Notes under the pieces: generated by a model
Told to the model about the DNA's origin: nothing
Databases searched by the model: none
The model's input: only the letters and a program-made list of their open reading frames with translations
Translations under genes and position numbers: made by a program
In this document: positions 2,582 through 41,127 of the stretch, piece by piece
Layout of the letters: every line of letters begins with the position of its first letter
How positions within the stretch are numbered: the stretch's first letter is position 1
Origin: Vibrio algicola
GTDB lineage: Bacteria > Pseudomonadota > Gammaproteobacteria > Enterobacterales > Vibrionaceae
Direction: 5' to 3'
Assembly: GCF_009601765.2 (NCBI RefSeq)
Contig: NZ_CP045700.1
Location: 248,001 to 312,000 of the forward strand
Length of the DNA stretch: 64,000 bases

Positions 2582-3859
2582 ATGGATCCGCATATTACGG
2601 AATGGCTCAACCTTTCAATTCGATGGGTTCACATGATCGTTGGTGTCGCCTGGATTGGCGCATCATTCTACTTTGTATGGTTAGAGAATAACTTAAACCG
2701 TGTTGATCCTAAAACGGGTTTATCGGGCGATTTATGGGCTATTCATGGTGGGGGGATCTACCACCTAGAAAAATACAAGCTCGCACCACCAAAAATGCCA
2801 GACAATCTGCATTGGTTTAAGTGGGAAGCGTATTTCACTTGGATCACCGGGGTGTGCTTACTGTTTGTGGTTTACTACCTCAATGCCAATATTTATTTGA
2901 TCGCGCCAGGATCAGGCTTGAGTGCGGGCGCAGCCATTGGCATCGGCATTGGTTCGCTGATCGGCGGCTGGGTAGTGTATACATTATTGTGTGACTCACC
3001 TTTAGGTAAAAAACCTTTATTACTCGGTATTGTTTTGTTTATCTGTTTAGTGGGCGCCGCTTATGGTTTAAGCCAAGTGTTTAGTGGCCGTGGTGCTTAC
3101 ATCCATGTTGGTGCCATTATTGGTACGATTATGGTGGGTAATGTGTTCTTTATCATTATGCCTGCGCAACGTAATTTGGTGAAAGCGATTGAAGATGGCA
3201 CAGAGCCAGATCCATCACTGCCAGCCAAAGGTTTATTGCGTTCACGTCATAACAACTACTTAACGCTGCCAGTGTTGTTCATTATGATCAGTAACCACTT
3301 TCCAAGTACCTTCGGCTCGGAATACAACTGGTTAATTCTTGCTGCGCTATCGGTATTTAGCATTTTGGTTCGCCACTACTTTAATACACGTCATGGTAGT
3401 CAAAAATATGCTTGGGCGGTACCTGTTGCGGTACTCGGTATGATCAGCTTGGCGTTTGTCACTTCAAACAGCATGCCATCGATGAAATCTGCGAGCAGCG
3501 AAAGCGTGCCAGTTGCACAAGTGACTAGCACAGTAGAAGCGACTGAAACGGTTGATGCACAAGGTGAAACCGTGCAAGTTGAATCCACGGAAACGCCAAC
3601 GCCAACCGTGTTTATGCAAGTTCAAAATGTGATTGAACAACGTTGTGTGGAATGCCACTCCGAAAATCCAACCAGTAACCTGTTTGCTTCTGCTCCGGCC
3701 GGTGTGATGTTGGATACTGCGGAAGAAATTCAAGCTAATGCCCCACGGATCCAATCACAAGTGCAAATGAAAGTGATGCCGTTAGGAAATATGACCAAAA
3801 TGACTGACGCAGAGCGCAGTTTGGTGGTTAATTGGGTCAATGATGGCGCGAAAATTTAA
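2582..3859 (+). CDS. puuD: Membrane urate hydroxylase PuuD with fused cytochrome c domain
   Basis: Oxidises urate to 5-hydroxyisourate at the inner membrane and passes electrons to its own cytochrome c. The 425-residue protein has an N-terminal membrane domain (residues 1-300, about eight hydrophobic helices, opening with the WLNLSIRWVHMIVG segment typical of the urate oxidase N family), a Thr/Glu-rich periplasmic linker (about 300-345), and a C-terminal c-type heme site CVECH at residues 355-359. AAAGGAG precedes the start. It is last in the urate operon and is followed by a strong terminator. No truncation is seen. Confidence 0.94.
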   Translation: MDPHITEWLNLSIRWVHMIVGVAWIGASFYFVWLENNLNRVDPKTGLSGDLWAIHGGGIYHLEKYKLAPPKMPDNLHWFKWEAYFTWITGVCLLFVVYYLNANIYLIAPGSGLSAGAAIGIGIGSLIGGWVVYTLLCDSPLGKKPLLLGIVLFICLVGAAYGLSQVFSGRGAYIHVGAIIGTIMVGNVFFIIMPAQRNLVKAIEDGTEPDPSLPAKGLLRSRHNNYLTLPVLFIMISNHFPSTFGSEYNWLILAALSVFSILVRHYFNTRHGSQKYAWAVPVAVLGMISLAFVTSNSMPSMKSASSESVPVAQVTSTVEATETVDAQGETVQVESTETPTPTVFMQVQNVIEQRCVECHSENPTSNLFASAPAGVMLDTAEEIQANAPRIQSQVQMKVMPLGNMTKMTDAERSLVVNWVNDGAKI

Positions 3860-33823: not shown

Positions 33824-34144
33824 ATGAATATTAACACTCGAAAAAAACGACTAAATTACACACATAAACAAAAGCACGAGTACGCCAGATTGATGATTGA
33901 AGAGCATTATACCAATCAACAAATTATGGATATATCAGGCGCTGGCGCTACTGCGGTTGCTCGTTGGAAAAAGCAGTACATAGATGAACAGCGTGGTGAA
34001 TTCGCACCCGATAAAGTGCCTTTAGATGCCGATAAACGATTAATCGAAGAACTGAAAAAAGAGTTGGCAGAATCAAGAGAAGATGTTCGATTGTTAAAAA
34101 AAGCAACCGCCTTGTTCATACGCGACAATCCAAACTTGAAGTGA
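33824..34144 (+). CDS. IS3-family transposase OrfA of the degraded element
   Basis: A 106-residue HTH protein (NYTHKQKHEYARLMIEEHYTNQQIMDISGAGATAVARWKKQY) with a C-terminal leucine-zipper region (IEELKKELAESREDVRLLKKA). A7G at 34096-34103 could drive the -1 shift into orfB. The reading frame itself is intact. Confidence 0.88.
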   Translation: MNINTRKKRLNYTHKQKHEYARLMIEEHYTNQQIMDISGAGATAVARWKKQYIDEQRGEFAPDKVPLDADKRLIEELKKELAESREDVRLLKKATALFIRDNPNLK

Positions 34145-34989
34145 TTCAACAACTGAGCAAGGCAGAGCCTAAAATTTCTATTCAGAGATTATGTGGGCTG
34201 CTTGAGTTACCCATATCAAGCTATTACTACACGCCAGTGACTCGAGTTGCCGATGAGGTGCTCGGGAATAAAATGAAGACTATTTTCGAAGACACTTTTT
34301 ATTGTTATGGAAAGCGACGATTGGCTTTTGAGTTGAATAAAGAAGAATCCGTCACTGTTGGTTTATTTAAAACCGCTAGGCTAATGAAAACATTATAATT
34401 AGTCGCTAAGCGACCGAAGAAACCACACTATTATGCTCAGGGAAAAGAACGACCGACTACACCAAACTTATTAAAAAGAGCATTTAACCCGACTGATTTG
34501 AATACTCATTGGGTTGGCGATATTACGTTTATTCGCTCACATCAAGGTTGGAGCTATTTAGCCACAGTGATGGACTTGGCGAATCGAGAAATTGTTGGTT
34601 ATGCACTGTCGAAAACACCGGATGCCCAGTTGGCTAAACAAGCTTTAACGAATGCGATTGCTCAGCATAAACCAACAACGAAGGGGTTGATGTTTCACTC
34701 CGATCAGGGTGTACAATATACGGCAAAGTTATTCCAAGAAACGCTTCTCGATCACAACATGATACAAAGTATGAGTCGGCGAGGGTGTTGCTGGGACAAT
34801 GCCGTACAAGAACGATTCTTCCGCAATTTGAAAACGGAATATCTGAACGACCTAAGCTTCATCAATCACCCATCGGTGGTAACCGCCGTCGAACGGTATA
34901 TTAGCTTCTACAACTACAGACGATTGAACTCCGCGATTGATTATCTAACGCCAGTTCAAAAGCGCCAAGAATTACTAAAAGTGGCTTAG
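34141..34989 (+). pseudogene. IS3-family transposase OrfB, premature stop
   Basis: One continuous frame interrupted only by a TAA at 34396-34398. The first part carries the HTH_21 region (ISSYYYTP...YGKRRLAFELN); the second the rve core with WVGDITFIRS, MFHSDQGVQYT and the DNAVQERFFRNLKTEY glutamate, and the NYRRLNSAIDYLTP end. The stop separates the DNA-binding and catalytic regions, so transposition by this copy is unlikely. Confidence 0.9.
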
Positions 34990-35297: not shown

Positions 35298-35678
35298 ATG
35301 CGTATGTTTAAACAATTATGGTTAGTCAGTTTAGGGTTATTGGGTTTCGGAGTTATCCCAGCGACAGCTCAAGCGGATGAGCAATATGATACCGGCCAGA
35401 AAAAAGCCGCGGTTTGTATGACTTGTCACGGTAAAGCGGGGGTCTCAGATATCGCTATTTATCCTAACCTGCAAGGGCAGAAATTTGAGTATTTAGTCAC
35501 CACACTTAAAGCTTATAAACGACGTCAACGAACAGGGGGGCTTGCGTTAGTGATGTATGAACAAGCCGATAGCCTGACCGAGCAAGACATGAAAGACATT
35601 AGTTATTTCTTTTCCAAAGTCACTTCTCAATCCATATCAGAACCAACTCAATCCAAACCTGAACCTAGCGCACAATAG
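35298..35678 (+). CDS. Periplasmic monoheme cytochrome c
   Basis: A 126-residue class I cytochrome c: a signal peptide (cleavage after AQA), a heme site CMTCHGKAG near residue 40, and an axial-methionine region around LALVMYEQADSLTEQDMKDISYFF. The family resembles cytochrome c553 / c4-half proteins. A Ser/Pro/Glu-rich tail closes it. It lies 40 bp upstream of ccoN, so it is likely an electron donor to that oxidase. AGGATCAG precedes the ATG. Confidence 0.88.
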   Translation: MRMFKQLWLVSLGLLGFGVIPATAQADEQYDTGQKKAAVCMTCHGKAGVSDIAIYPNLQGQKFEYLVTTLKAYKRRQRTGGLALVMYEQADSLTEQDMKDISYFFSKVTSQSISEPTQSKPEPSAQ

Positions 35679-35718: not shown

Positions 35719-37242
35719 ATGGAAATTAATTACGATATGAAAGTGGTGAAATATTTCATCATTACCAGTTTGATCTGGGCGCTACTCGGTATGACTGTTG
35801 GGTTAATACTTGCAGCGCAACTTTATTGGCCAATACTCAATTTTGATTCTGAATACTTTCAATTTGGTCGATTACGCCCCTTGCATACTTCTGGGGTTAT
35901 TTTTGGTTTTGTAGTCAATATTTTGATGGGGACGTCACTGTATATTGTGCAACGTACCAGTAAAACGACACTGTTTAATAAAAGTTTAGCTTGGATGGTG
36001 TTCTGGGGTTGGCAATTAGTCTTAGTGCTGGCGTTGATCACATTGCCATTAGGCTGGACCAGCTCAAAAGAATACGCTGAACTTGAATGGCCAATTGATA
36101 TTTTAATTGCCGTGGTTTGGGTGATGTACGCAGTATTATTTTTTGGCACTATTGGCCAACGAAAAGTACAACACATCTTTGTGGCAAACTGGTTCTTCGG
36201 CGGCTTTATTATTGTGATCGCGATGATTTTTATCGTTAATAACTTGGAGATACCGGTTAACTTGACTAAATCGTATTCTGTTTATGCTGGCACGCAAGAC
36301 GCCATTGTTCAGTGGTGGTGGGGGCATAACGCGGTTGGTTTCTTGTTAACTGCAGGGATCATTGGTATGAACTACTACTTCATCCCTAAAGCGTCCGAAC
36401 GACCTATCTATTCCTATCGACTTTCTGTGGTTCACTTTTGGGGCTTGGTAGGTTTTTATACTTGGGCAGGTACTCACCATTTAATTTATTCTTCTGTGCC
36501 AGATTGGTTGCAAAACCTCGGTATCATCATGTCATTATTATTATGGCTGCCATCTTGGGGCGGGGCATTTAATAGCTTAATGACACTGCTTTCAAATAAA
36601 GAAAAACTGAAACATGACTATGTGATGCTGTTCTTCCTTTCTGCGGTTATTTACTACGCGTTGGCAACCTTTGAAGGTCCACTATTAGCGATCCGCTGGT
36701 TTAATATGATCGCACATAATACCGAATGGATTGTTGGTCATGTGCATTCTGCCGCATTAGGTTGGGTGGCAATGTCTGGCTTTGCAGTGTTCTACTACTT
36801 TATTCCGCGTTTATGGGGACATAAAGACATGTGGTCACGTCGGTTGGTCAAATGGCATTTTTGGTTTGCACATATCGGGATTGCGATTTACGCGGTTGCA
36901 CTTTGGATTGGCGGGATCGGTCAAGGTTACATGTGGTTAAAACAAAACGATGATGGCTCTTTAATGTACACCTTTGTTGACGCCATGAACTTTGTTGCGC
37001 CATGGATGCTTGCGCGCTTTATTGGTGGAGCGTTCTTTGTTGCTGGGGTGATATTGATGATTTATAACCTTTATCGAACGCTTTCTTTGCCGCTCAACGA
37101 TACAGACAATGACGTTAATAACAAAGCGGCTGGTTTAGATAACGGTAACTTAGACACGAATAACTTAGGCGCGAATAGCTTAGGTGCGAATAACATCGCC
37201 ACGAAAACCACAGACCAAGAGGGTAAAGCTTATGTTAAATAA
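35719..37242 (+). CDS. ccoN: cbb3-type cytochrome c oxidase subunit I (CcoN-like)
   Basis: Catalytic heme-copper subunit in the inner membrane. The 507-residue protein has twelve or more hydrophobic helices. Family motifs seen: RPLHTSGVIFGF (low-spin heme His) near residue 52, WWGHNAVGFLLTAGIIGMNYYFIPK near 197, VHFWGLVGFYTWAGTHH near 240 with copper-site His pair and the Tyr, and IVGHVHSAALGWVAMSG near 337 with two heme ligands. After residue 470 a low-complexity Asn/Asp/Leu tail (NNKAAGLDNGNL...) is added. It is divergent from the standard CcoN; no ccoQ or ccoGHIS genes are nearby. Confidence 0.93.
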   Translation: MEINYDMKVVKYFIITSLIWALLGMTVGLILAAQLYWPILNFDSEYFQFGRLRPLHTSGVIFGFVVNILMGTSLYIVQRTSKTTLFNKSLAWMVFWGWQLVLVLALITLPLGWTSSKEYAELEWPIDILIAVVWVMYAVLFFGTIGQRKVQHIFVANWFFGGFIIVIAMIFIVNNLEIPVNLTKSYSVYAGTQDAIVQWWWGHNAVGFLLTAGIIGMNYYFIPKASERPIYSYRLSVVHFWGLVGFYTWAGTHHLIYSSVPDWLQNLGIIMSLLLWLPSWGGAFNSLMTLLSNKEKLKHDYVMLFFLSAVIYYALATFEGPLLAIRWFNMIAHNTEWIVGHVHSAALGWVAMSGFAVFYYFIPRLWGHKDMWSRRLVKWHFWFAHIGIAIYAVALWIGGIGQGYMWLKQNDDGSLMYTFVDAMNFVAPWMLARFIGGAFFVAGVILMIYNLYRTLSLPLNDTDNDVNNKAAGLDNGNLDTNNLGANSLGANNIATKTTDQEGKAYVK

Positions 37243-37822
37243 AGATTTTACTCAGTCGGTTTGGATCCTGATTTTTTCTACCATTGGGGTCGCGAGCTTC
37301 TCGTTACTGGCTTGGGTGGTGCCAGATCTGTTTATGAAAGATGAACAGATCAAAAAATCGACTGTACTCCCTTATACCGCTTTGCAGTTAGCCGGACGAG
37401 ATATTTACATTAGTGAAGGTTGTCATACTTGTCACTCGCAGATGGTGCGTCCATTACCTGCAGAAGTAGCACGATATGGCGAACCAACCAAAGGTGAGGA
37501 TGATATTTATGAATACCCAAATCTCTGGGGTTCTAAACGTACCGGTCCTGATTTGGCTAACGTTGGGCGTAAATATTCTGACCGTTGGCATGAGATCCAT
37601 TTAATGGATCCTAGGAATGTGGTACCAACCTCAATCATGCCTTCTTATCCGTGGCTATTTACTAAGGTATTAGACGGTGAAGATATTGCCGACAAAATGG
37701 AAACGCTTAGGATCTTAGGCGTGCCTTATACCGATGATGAAATTGATCGGGCGCGTTTGCAGGTGAAAAATAAAACCTATGCTGATGCATTGATCAGTTA
37801 TCTGCAGAGTCTAGGGGAATAA
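37232..37822 (+). CDS. ccoO: cbb3-type oxidase subunit II (CcoO-like) monoheme cytochrome
   Basis: A 196-residue membrane-anchored cytochrome c: an N-terminal helix (WILIFSTIGVASFSLLAWVV), then the CcoO heme site GCHTCHSQMVRPL near residue 68, and GPDLANVGRKYSDRWHEIHL and NVVPTSIMPSYPWL typical of CcoO, with the Met ligand. The start is the ATG at MLNKDF, which lies inside the end of ccoN and follows AGAGGGTA, so translation is coupled. Length is close to CcoO (about 200). Confidence 0.93.
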   Translation: MLNKDFTQSVWILIFSTIGVASFSLLAWVVPDLFMKDEQIKKSTVLPYTALQLAGRDIYISEGCHTCHSQMVRPLPAEVARYGEPTKGEDDIYEYPNLWGSKRTGPDLANVGRKYSDRWHEIHLMDPRNVVPTSIMPSYPWLFTKVLDGEDIADKMETLRILGVPYTDDEIDRARLQVKNKTYADALISYLQSLGE

Positions 37823-37831
37823 GGAGGCAGC

Positions 37832-39940
37832 ATGTTAAGTACATTTTGGAGTGCGTGGGTCATTATTCTTACCGTGATTTTCTTGGTCATTATGGGGTAT
37901 GTCATTTGGCATTATTGGCATAAAAATCATGAGGCGGATGCGGATAAAGCGTTACATGTTTACGATGGTATTGCGGAAAACGATGCCAAATTACCAATGG
38001 TATTGCTGTATTCATATTTGATTGCCTTTATTGCCAGTGCGATTTTCTTTGTGTTGTATCCGGGGATGGGAAATTGGCAGGGTTTAATGAATTGGCATTC
38101 AACCGATGAACTACAACAATACGATACCAAGATCATTGATAAAAAATTGGCGGCGTTACAGTCCGATTCAAAGACATTAACCCAGTTAAGCCAAAACGAA
38201 GACATTGTCGGTTATGGTGAAAAGCTATTTAATAACCACTGTGAAGCCTGTCATGGTAAAAATGGGCAAGGGCAGTTGCACTTTCCTAATCTCGTCGATA
38301 ATGAATGGATTTATGATAGCAGTGATGCGGGGATCATAAGTTCGATCACCCATGGTCGTCATGGGGTGATGGTCGGTTGGAAAGATGTATTAACCGAGCA
38401 ACAAATTGAGGATGTCTCGACCTATGTTGCCAGTTTACAAACCAATCGCGCAGTTCCTGCGGCAAAAGTGCAACGCGAACAAGGTCAGCAACTGTTTGAG
38501 TATAATTGTGCCGCGTGTCATGGCGATGCTGGCACTGGTAACACTCAAATTGGTGCCTACAACTTAACCGATGATACTTGGGTTCACGGTGGCAATATTG
38601 CGCAAATACAAACGACGGTACGCGAAGGGTTAGATTCGGTGATGCCTGCCTTCGATAAGCAATTATCCAAAGCGCAAATTACCGCCTTGGGTGCTTATTT
38701 GACCCATCAACGGTTAAAAGGGCAAAAGCAAGTGACTGCGCTCGATGCCGATATGGTTAAACGAGGTGAATACCTAGCTTATGCAGGAGACTGTGTGGCT
38801 TGTCATACCGCTGAAAATGGCGAACTATTTGGTGGTGGATTGGCTTTCCCAACCCCATTTGGTGCCTTGTATTCAACTAATATTTCGACTCATGTTGAGC
38901 GAGGGATTGGCAGTTATACTTACCAAGAGTTCCATGATGCGGTGCGTTTAGGCGTGGCCAAACACGGCAACTTATACCCAGCAATGCCGTACACGTCTTA
39001 TCAATATATAACCGAGGAAGATACTCAGGCGTTGTGGGCTTACATGCAATCGTTGACCCCAGTGAGCAGTCCAAATATACCAAACGGTATGATATTTCCG
39101 ACCAATATTCGATTGGGAATGTGGGCGTGGAATTTGGTGTTCTTTGATGAAGATAAGCTGACCTACCCACCAGAGGCTAGCGATGCTTGGAAGCGAGGAA
39201 AGTATCTCACTATGGGCTTAGGGCACTGCGCTGAGTGTCATACGCCGCGTAATGTCGCGCAAGCATTAGAAGAGGATAATCCTTTCCAAGGCAATATCAT
39301 TGATCATTGGAATGCGCCGGATATTACTGCTAATGAGTTACATCAACATGGTTGGGAAGTGAAAGACATTAGCGACTTCTTAAAAACAGGGCATTCCTCT
39401 AAAGGAACGGCGTTTGCTGGTATGGCCGATGTGGTGAAAAACAGTACTCGTTATATGACCCGTGATGACTTGGATGCGATTGCCGAATATTTATTAACCG
39501 GAGATGAAGGAAACCGCTTGGATCCTGCTACGAAACCATTACAACCAAGTGGCTTTAGTGTGGCGGATAAACAAACCAAAGAGTATCAAATCTTTGCCGA
39601 AACTTGTGGTGCTTGTCATGGACCAGACGGTAAAGGACGCAAAGATATTGCTCCAGCACTGTTAGGTAACGGTATTATTGCTCACTCAGAACCTTACAAC
39701 ACGGTTGCAGTAGTATTGCGCGGTTTATCACCGGATTATCTTGAGCCGAATCGTGATTACATGCCAATGAGTAGCTTTAACGATATTGCAGGCGATGCTG
39801 AAATGGCACGCATGATCAGCTTTATTCGCGATAAGCTTGGCGCTCGATCTGAACCTGTTACGAAAGAGATGGTAAAAGAGATCCGCATTAGCCTTGAAAA
39901 AGGAGGCGTTACGGGAGGGGTCCATGAAACAGGCAAGTGA
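37832..39940 (+). CDS. Pentaheme CcoP-like fusion: CcoP plus triheme dehydrogenase-type cytochrome
   Basis: A 702-residue protein with five c-heme sites. Residues 1-90 are two membrane helices as in CcoP; C137-H141 (CEACH) and C226-H230 (CAACH) are the two CcoP hemes. Residues about 305-665 are a second unit with CVACH at 321-325, CAECH at 466-470 and CGACH at 592-596 and the segments GGLAFPTPFGALYSTNI and SSKGTAFAGMADVV, typical of the triheme cytochrome subunit of membrane alcohol or gluconate dehydrogenases. Normal CcoP is about 300 residues with two or three hemes. AAGGAGGC precedes the ATG. Likely role: passes electrons from a periplasmic dehydrogenase directly into the oxidase; this is inference. 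Confidence 0.9.
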   Translation: MLSTFWSAWVIILTVIFLVIMGYVIWHYWHKNHEADADKALHVYDGIAENDAKLPMVLLYSYLIAFIASAIFFVLYPGMGNWQGLMNWHSTDELQQYDTKIIDKKLAALQSDSKTLTQLSQNEDIVGYGEKLFNNHCEACHGKNGQGQLHFPNLVDNEWIYDSSDAGIISSITHGRHGVMVGWKDVLTEQQIEDVSTYVASLQTNRAVPAAKVQREQGQQLFEYNCAACHGDAGTGNTQIGAYNLTDDTWVHGGNIAQIQTTVREGLDSVMPAFDKQLSKAQITALGAYLTHQRLKGQKQVTALDADMVKRGEYLAYAGDCVACHTAENGELFGGGLAFPTPFGALYSTNISTHVERGIGSYTYQEFHDAVRLGVAKHGNLYPAMPYTSYQYITEEDTQALWAYMQSLTPVSSPNIPNGMIFPTNIRLGMWAWNLVFFDEDKLTYPPEASDAWKRGKYLTMGLGHCAECHTPRNVAQALEEDNPFQGNIIDHWNAPDITANELHQHGWEVKDISDFLKTGHSSKGTAFAGMADVVKNSTRYMTRDDLDAIAEYLLTGDEGNRLDPATKPLQPSGFSVADKQTKEYQIFAETCGACHGPDGKGRKDIAPALLGNGIIAHSEPYNTVAVVLRGLSPDYLEPNRDYMPMSSFNDIAGDAEMARMISFIRDKLGARSEPVTKEMVKEIRISLEKGGVTGGVHETGK

Positions 39941-40167: not shown

Positions 40168-41127
40168 ATGACCAAAATAAAAAACTTTCCCACTCCAGTT
40201 GCAGGCTTAGCATTAGGGATCTCAGCTATTGGTTGGTGTTGGGAAAATTATGCACCGCATTTAGGTTTGATCCAAAATACCACCTCCGCAATCGCGTTAT
40301 TATTAGTGTGCGGTGTGATGGCTAAATTTATTCGCCATCCAACCAAGTTATTTGAAGAATTGCGTCATCCGATTGTGGGGTCGGTGCTGCCAACCATGTG
40401 TATGGCACTCATGGCGATTTCTTACGATCTTATTCATTTTCATCAACTCGCGATTACTGGCCGAGTAGTCTGGTATGGCGCAGTGATCCTTCACTTACTG
40501 TTTTTCATCTCGTTTACTTACCATCGTTGTAAAGGCTTTAAACTTAAAGACATGATCCCAAGTTGGTTTATTCCGGCAATTGGTCCGATTTTAGGCTGTT
40601 TAGCGAATCCCGGTGCAGACACATTATGGTTAGCTAACATCTTATTGGTTTTAGGGGTAGGTTCGTATTTTGTGTTATTGCCACTGCTAATGTATCGATT
40701 AACTTTCCATGAGCGATTACAAGCGGCTGAAGTACCAACCTTTGCCATTATGGCAGCGCCGTCTAATCTGATCATTATTGGTTACTTGGGGGTCGCGACT
40801 GCGCCGATGGTGAATATGCTACTGATGCTCAGTGGTGTGGCAATACTATTGAATGTGGTGTTTTACTTGTCGCTAGTACGTCTGCTAAAACAACCCTTTA
40901 GTGCGGGGTTTTCAGCCTATACTTTCCCGCTTGCCAGTGGCGCAACCGCGATGTTTAAAATGGAAGCACTATTAACCAGTCACGAGTTGAGCAATGGGGT
41001 GGGTGTGTTTCATTATTTAGCCATTTTTCAGCTTTATGTGGCCAGCCTTATTATTGCTTATGTGGCATTTTGCTTTATCAAACATTACCGCTTTAATCTG
41101 ATTGGCTTGTTTGTTAATCGTGCTTAG
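40168..41127 (+). CDS. TDT/SLAC1-family transporter (TehA-like)
   Basis: A 319-residue inner-membrane protein with about ten hydrophobic helices. It opens with FPTPVAGLALGISAIGWCWE, and has IPAIGPILGCLAN, MAAPSNLIIIGYLG and FPLASGATAMFK, motifs of the tellurite-resistance/dicarboxylate transporter family. Members move anions such as sulfite, malate or tellurite; the substrate here is not evident. It stands alone after the oxidase operon. Confidence 0.88.
   Translation: MTKIKNFPTPVAGLALGISAIGWCWENYAPHLGLIQNTTSAIALLLVCGVMAKFIRHPTKLFEELRHPIVGSVLPTMCMALMAISYDLIHFHQLAITGRVVWYGAVILHLLFFISFTYHRCKGFKLKDMIPSWFIPAIGPILGCLANPGADTLWLANILLVLGVGSYFVLLPLLMYRLTFHERLQAAEVPTFAIMAAPSNLIIIGYLGVATAPMVNMLLMLSGVAILLNVVFYLSLVRLLKQPFSAGFSAYTFPLASGATAMFKMEALLTSHELSNGVGVFHYLAIFQLYVASLIIAYVAFCFIKHYRFNLIGLFVNRA

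Follow-up and report, generated by a model that had tools for sequence, protein, structure and literature searches.

In the cbb3-type oxidases of Pseudomonas (P. stutzeri 3mk7, P. aeruginosa 8smr/8snh), the subunit CcoP has N-terminal helices and two c-type hemes and is partnered by CcoN and CcoO. CcoQ is common in cbb3 operons without defining them. Among the matches listed in our searches, the CcoP chains of known structure are 297–349 residues long, or 474 residues in an engineered fusion. The tri-heme CcoP of Neisseria is extended C-terminally by a cytochrome fusion, and the extension is described as one c5 heme and an Ala-Ser-Pro-rich region (PMC2924362). Triheme cytochromes of another family are found as dehydrogenase subunits, including those of the alcohol, fructose, glucose, and aldehyde enzymes (ADH, FDH, GDH, and ALDH) of Gluconobacter and Burkholderia (8gy2, 7w2j/8jej, 8hdd, and 8gy3) and of a Tat-exported molybdenum (Mo) hydroxylase complex that consists of a MoCoBD large subunit of ~950 aa, a 177-aa 2Fe-2S subunit, and the triheme cytochrome.

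The window, the 64,000-nucleotide stretch of Vibrio algicola DNA analyzed here, encodes a CcoP that unites the two types of protein in a single ORF of 702 aa (37832–39940, plus strand). The fused CcoP is like that of Pseudomonas in its N-terminal helices, two c hemes, and related fold but has ~400 extra residues, three more hemes, and no accompanying ccoQ. Like the Neisseria protein it carries a C-terminal cytochrome extension, yet it adds three hemes of the triheme dehydrogenase type, in place of the c5 heme, on a gap-free helical junction. Its residues 301–690 have the same heme order as the Mo-hydroxylase cytochrome, from which they differ in lacking a linked Mo or 2Fe-2S subunit and a signal peptide of their own and in being joined to an oxidase subunit. 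The cassette is a variant of cbb3 oxidase, whose anatomy could be confirmed, whose ancestry needed correction, and whose electron source we infer.

The CcoP part (37832–38722, residues 1–297) contains the N-terminal helices at residues 4–34 and 56–75 and the sites of heme 1, CEACH (137–141; 38240–38254), and heme 2, CAACH (226–230; 38507–38521). The triheme part (38732–39901, residues 301–690) contains those of heme 3, CVACH (321–325; 38792–38806), heme 4, CAECH (466–470; 39227–39241), and heme 5, CGACH (592–596; 39605–39619), all on the plus strand. The five CxxCH motifs of the 702-residue protein, starting at 137, 226, 321, 466, and 592, are as an earlier note on this DNA had described them, and their Cys and His residues are invariant in 18/18 aligned fusions. 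The same holds for one candidate axial Met per heme (M180, M271, M385, M531, and M646), which, judged from the alignment, may serve as the second ligands. The NCBIfam profile TIGR00782 (ccoP) matched residues 37–291 with 200 bits against a cut-off of 180, Pfam FixP_N matched residues 42–83 with 37.7 bits against 24.9, and a search of PDB sequences paired residues 3–291 with Pseudomonas CcoP (8snh_G, E 2e-52), in agreement with the CcoP-like, two-heme N-terminal third of the earlier note. Residues 301–685 matched the cytochrome subunits of glucose, fructose, alcohol, and aldehyde dehydrogenases among PDB sequences, the best being 8hdd_B (E 3e-65), 7w2j_C, 8gy2_B, and 8gy3_A, and in the predicted structure the C-terminal part has three CxxCH units folded as in ADH, FDH, and ALDH. 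Sequence, tree, and predicted fold thus all identify the C-terminal unit as dehydrogenase-type triheme cytochrome, and the caveat that it might be unrelated to that family falls away. The structure model was the one made with 91 sequences (an earlier 18-sequence model was poor, pLDDT 62) and contains the protein chain alone, without hemes and without the N and O subunits. The lists returned by VIA-align were dominated by single c-type domains, and absences from them were not interpreted.

The two parts meet in a junction (38669–38785, plus strand, residues 280–318) made of helices 280–302 and 306–318, with a predicted pLDDT of 92–97 across residues 281–320. None of its 39 columns was gapped in the 18-row alignment of fusions. 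For comparison between loci, we used a set of 55, comprising the 54 named fusion loci among the matches listed and the window, and found hemes 2 and 3 spaced exactly 95 residues apart in 53 of them, the remaining spacings being variable; the two others (L048 and L049) have short four-heme ORFs. The predicted model and the alignment suggest that the junction is rigid, helical, and fixed in length. The pairwise identity among fusions was 0.59 and 0.49 for hemes 1 and 2 and 0.66, 0.65, and 0.59 for hemes 3, 4, and 5. Conservation is higher at hemes 3 and 4 than at the two CcoP hemes, and heme 5 is level with heme 1; the triheme part is therefore under constraint.

The fused gene is the last of a four-gene cassette with all genes on the plus strand. 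First comes a monoheme c-type cytochrome (35298–35678; 126 aa, one CxxCH, a signal peptide by eye, Pfam Cytochrom_C E 2.7e-5), followed by ccoN, which encodes the catalytic subunit and belongs to a second cbb3 lineage (35719–37242; TIGR00780, 602 bits against a cut-off of 583) and, overlapping it, ccoO for the monoheme subunit (37232–37822; TIGR00781, 212 bits against 201). As only 9 bp separate ccoO from ccoP, ccoQ is absent from the cassette; across 52 loci the distance had a median of −4 and a range of −29 to 541. The earlier note was correct on this absence and on the preceding monoheme gene, while its description of ccoN and ccoO as divergent is valid for the sequence only, CcoN being 54% identical to the standard CcoN of the same genome, as both genes share the strand of ccoP. 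The CcoN of the window ends in an Asn-rich tail (37087–37239) and has 507 aa, compared with 469–489 in seven relatives. The cassette is nearly constant across the 55 loci, with the monoheme cytochrome found in 53, ccoN in 54, and ccoO and the fused ccoP in all 55, and the commonest neighbor cluster outside it, from ORF clustering, reaching 14/55 (flanks were shorter than 10 kb in L005, L010, L012, L030, L042, and L045). A strict FNR box was present in 1/53 cassette upstream regions and in 0/10 of native cco operons, which makes the scan uninformative. Directly upstream of the cassette lies a transposase with an rve domain (33824–34989, IS3-like by eye), whose second ORF seems fragmented. A SLAC1-type transporter gene (40168–41127) lies downstream, and Mu-like prophage genes (MuA, MuB, terminase, Mu portal) extend shortly beyond it from 41994 to at least 57645.

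The catalytic ligands of the Pseudomonas partner subunits are shared by the cassette. In the alignment of CcoN with 3mk7_A, the heme and CuB ligands were identical (H60, H207, Y251, H257, H258, E323, H345, and H347); in 3mk7_A these residues bind heme and copper and include the tyrosine of the cross-link, and given their identity, oxygen reduction would be expected. The same genome has an additional, standard ccoN-O-Q-P operon on C1, with a 59-aa ORF in the place of ccoQ and followed by ORFs that resemble ccoH, ccoI, and ccoS by eye. In a 57-row CcoN tree, for which 26 fusion rows were selected by hand and 20 of these retained, with 12 of 23 high-scoring references and long branches flagged, the fusion CcoNs formed one group (90/79), apart from the native Vibrionaceae CcoN (100/100). 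The separate grouping that the CcoN phylogeny had been proposed to reveal was thus found.

The same lineage contains four-heme CcoPs of 484–488 aa, seen in Vibrio, Moritella, and Shewanella, with four CxxCH motifs in 9/9 full-length relatives. These have two extra hemes where the fusion has three, and their match to the A1 profile is restricted to residues 1–297. One operon of this kind was examined, and its CcoN joined the fusion CcoN group at 100/100, the row falling inside the group in one CcoN tree and beside it in the 57-row tree. With their CcoN grouped in this way, four-heme and fused five-heme CcoPs indicate an oxidase lineage whose CcoPs have been extended in more than one way. The operon in question (L088, 16197–19666) has the order ccoN-ccoO-ccoP, with a CcoP of 484 aa and no monoheme gene seen beside it.

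Within Vibrionaceae, full-length fusions were found in 48 of the 150 genomes searched, which answers in the affirmative whether the fusion is conserved in the family; one further genome (G115) has it split over two frames. At least 54 named loci (L004–L057), at 50–86% identity, belong to Vibrio, Photobacterium, Aliivibrio, Shewanella, and one uncultured Microbulbifer, and among the protein relatives listed, Psychromonas and Sinobacterium also have fusion copies. All of the best 120 relatives, from 7,998 scored candidates, had five CxxCH motifs in 686–734 aa. A single five-heme ORF was present in 52/54 named loci among the matches listed, L048 and L049 having a shortened four-heme ORF. Together with L095 (8020–10219), these two are loci at which fusion copies are split or have a shortened ORF. 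No further fusion was found at E 1e-80 in a class-wide scan of 369 genomes, that of V. algicola included, with at most three candidates scored in each and not all carrier genera sampled. The relatives are named variously in databases, as "cbb3-type subunit III," "c-type cytochrome," "thiosulfate dehydrogenase," or "diheme cytochrome c-553," and such names overlook the fused CcoP architecture.

The ancestry of the triheme half was examined with a 50-row tree that used 18 of the 120 fusions. All 18 fused domains formed one clade (100/100), which shared a larger clade of 43 rows (100/99) with 25 Mo-associated cytochromes. Three further standalone rows fell outside this larger clade, as did the PDB subunits of the FAD, PQQ, and Gluconobacter aldehyde enzymes; 7 of the 25 standalone loci (L059, L065, L070, L074, L075, L077, and L081), whose gene was missed by the ORF filter, are not in the tree. 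The forks placing the fused clade inside the Mo group and next to Microbulbifer are weak (81/88 and 83/94), and the standalone rows had been chosen as best hits. Homologues of the Mo-cofactor large subunit and the 2Fe-2S subunit were located by tblastn upstream of 25/25 listed standalone relatives (L058–L082); two of the large subunits were confirmed as MoCoBD_1/2, and those that were read start with a twin-arginine-like stretch. The fused domain is 37–43% identical to the 25 Mo-associated cytochromes and 31–35% identical to the ADH, FDH, GDH, and ALDH subunits of Gluconobacter and Burkholderia, which lie outside the fused-domain clade. Of 78 positions with 90% conservation among the 25 standalone cytochromes, it retains 64 (32/38 around heme 3, 23/26 around heme 4, and 9/14 around heme 5) and adds 91 conserved positions of its own in hemes 3–5, a figure inflated by the greater diversity of the standalone set. 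The resemblance to alcohol and gluconate dehydrogenases proposed in the earlier note thus stands at the level of the triheme dehydrogenase family, while the tree grouping corrects that label to a kinship with Mo hydroxylases. The fused triheme part is treated here as a relative of the dehydrogenase cytochrome subunits, not as a working member of them.

A dehydrogenase partner was sought both beside the cassette and elsewhere in the genomes. ORF clustering and tblastn revealed no conserved dehydrogenase beside the cassette among the 55 loci, and tblastn found the Mo large and 2Fe-2S subunits in 0/55 within flanks of at most 10 kb. A gene of the GMC class lies 5.8 kb downstream of the cassette in V. 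hibernica (L004), in 1/55 loci. The commonest linked dehydrogenase cluster, present in 14/55 loci, was an aldehyde dehydrogenase (soluble NAD-type, PF00171 in the one member tested); in Shewanella it lies ~5 kb upstream of the cassette, in some Vibrio on the downstream side at close to 10 kb. At the genome level, the Mo large subunit (E 1e-60) was present in 13 of the 150 Vibrionaceae, exactly the 13 with a standalone triheme cytochrome. Eight of these were among the 48 fusion carriers and five among the 102 noncarriers (Fisher P = 0.027, ignoring relatedness), so that the enzyme was missing from 40/48 carriers, and in 7/8 genomes with both, cassette and Mo enzyme were on different contigs. 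The genome of V. algicola had no match to the Mo enzyme at E 1e-60; its single MoCoBD_2 match belongs to an operon resembling that of xanthine dehydrogenase, with a large subunit that has no Tat start by eye. Any MoCoBD_2 match was found in 27/48 carriers.

The flavin- and quinone-dependent classes fared no better. The GMC small subunit (PF13618) was found in 0/150 genomes, that of V. algicola included; 37/48 carriers had a GMC match (PF00732), without the small subunit, and the match in V. algicola was weak (7e-7). PQQ alcohol dehydrogenase scored over the cut-off in 17/150 genomes, none of them among the 48 carriers, V. algicola included, and the partner enzymes of the Gluconobacter and Burkholderia cytochromes were not found in that genome. 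A GMC match, a MoCoBD_2 match, and a PQQ alcohol dehydrogenase over the cut-off were all missing from 7/48 carriers. The flavin- or quinone-dependent dehydrogenase that the earlier note had proposed as the source of electrons is thus not supported, the triheme half grouping elsewhere as well, and its suggested survey of co-occurring dehydrogenase genes yielded none conserved beside the cassette. The GMC gene close to the V. hibernica cassette and the GMC matches in 37/48 carriers weigh in favor of the proposal.

Because the unit is conserved and constrained yet without its usual partner, the simplest reading is that the triheme module forms an extended electron-entry arm. We favor, giving it an even chance, a second cbb3 oxidase with a triheme entry arm on CcoP that is fed mainly by small c-type cytochromes. 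The arm would collect electrons in the periplasm, supplied by the cassette's monoheme cytochrome, by the pool that bc1 reduces, or by both, and would pass them from hemes 5, 4, and 3 to CcoP hemes 2 and 1 and on to CcoO and CcoN. The module would have been co-opted as a wire and a docking surface, rather than retained as the subunit of one dedicated dehydrogenase. The role of the monoheme cytochrome as donor is suggested by operon membership, that is, by guilt by association, and bc1 cytochrome c1 is present in the V. algicola genome. A precedent is an engineered bc1-CcoP-cytochrome cy fusion, for which its authors ascribed electron transfer from bc1 to cbb3 to the cy domain (PMC7876108). The constancy of the cassette, the lack of a conserved dehydrogenase neighbor, and the absence of the partner classes from most carriers favor an entry arm. 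Counting against it are the higher share of Mo enzyme among carriers, the GMC gene near the cassette of V. hibernica, and one genome (G131) in which the cassette lies head-to-head with a Mo-hydroxylase operon that keeps its own triheme subunit (L089, 3911–14586).

Those same head-to-head operons and the uneven distribution of the Mo enzyme, together with the grouping of the triheme half with Mo-hydroxylase cytochromes and the retention of most of their conserved positions, argue for direct docking, in which the triheme domain would receive electrons from a dehydrogenase in the periplasm, be it like the Mo hydroxylase or from an unrecognized class, and oxygen would be reduced without quinone or bc1. 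We consider this rather unlikely. Most carriers, and V. algicola with them, are without the Mo enzyme, and in all 13 genomes that have it the enzyme is accompanied by a standalone triheme subunit and thus does not need the fused one. The separate contigs in 7/8 double carriers, the lack of PQQ alcohol dehydrogenase over the cut-off in carriers and of the GMC small subunit in any genome, and the absence of a conserved linked dehydrogenase speak against it too. Direct input from an unrecognized donor is possible. A general periplasmic connector from dehydrogenase to oxygen that bypasses the quinone pool and bc1, with an unrecognized dehydrogenase in most carriers and the Mo hydroxylase in a few, seems to us distinctly unlikely; if true, it would be a welded respiratory unit of dehydrogenase and oxidase with a built-in five-heme wire.

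The electrons could also flow the other way, leaving bc1 via the extra hemes of CcoP toward a periplasmic reductase, by analogy with the third heme of Neisseria CcoP, which directs them to nitrite reductase. In gonococcal strains with the di-heme form, growth with nitrite was slower under microaerobic conditions (PMC2924362). In the three relatives nearest to the window (L004, 2419–5479, and also L005 and L051), the cassette is preceded by a Prismane-family gene, accompanied in L004 by a flavin/2Fe-2S reductase gene, where the window has the IS element instead. However, copper nitrite reductase (TIGR02376, E 1e-40) was found in 3/150 genomes, none of them with a full-length fusion, and we judge an outlet quite improbable. 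The Prismane-family gene is presumably hybrid-cluster-protein-like. Related triheme subunits of the Gluconobacter enzymes deliver electrons to ubiquinone, and as the fold is common to both, the fused domain might retain an ancestral quinone site and the complex act as a quinol:O2 oxidase; inspection of the modeled C-terminal part by eye showed no evident extra membrane helix, and we regard such quinol access as very improbable. A frame or assembly error joining two separate genes, for which the window offers nothing (a few copies elsewhere, in G115, L048, and L049, are themselves split or shortened), is already refuted by the intact single ORF and full-length fusions across many genomes, by the gap-free junction, and by the lack of a standalone triheme gene in the V. 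algicola genome.

A second cbb3-type oxidase with a fused triheme CcoP, carried by many marine relatives of Vibrio, has apparently not been studied. Our search of the open PMC literature on CcoP and cbb3 found, among the titles and abstract openings listed, no description of a five-heme CcoP or a CcoP-triheme fusion, and the PMC literature on triheme dehydrogenases and urate oxidase had nothing about the fusion; subscription papers were mostly outside its scope, and an earlier notice may exist. Around a third of the Vibrionaceae genomes searched carry an oxidase whose entry subunit is unlike the listed CcoP structures, which suggests that respiratory modules can shift between dehydrogenase and oxidase on a rigid, length-fixed junction. 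It raises the testable question of whether bc1 is still required by an oxidase that carries a multiheme wire of its own and would be of relevance to the microaerobic respiration of marine bacteria and to the design of enzyme electrodes.

Two minor observations concern other proteins with heme sites. About 34 kb from the fused gene, the window encodes a membrane urate oxidase (2582–3859, plus strand; PF06181 E 2e-127) with a C-terminal CVECH heme site, a case of cytochrome-linked oxidation that we take to be PuuD-like; a search of the remaining 54 fusion loci did not find the gene. Two CcoP-like proteins of 517–521 aa (P0251 and P0252, one from Marinicella) have four CxxCH motifs and cytochrome c1 in their Pfam list, and are possibly another type of CcoP fusion.
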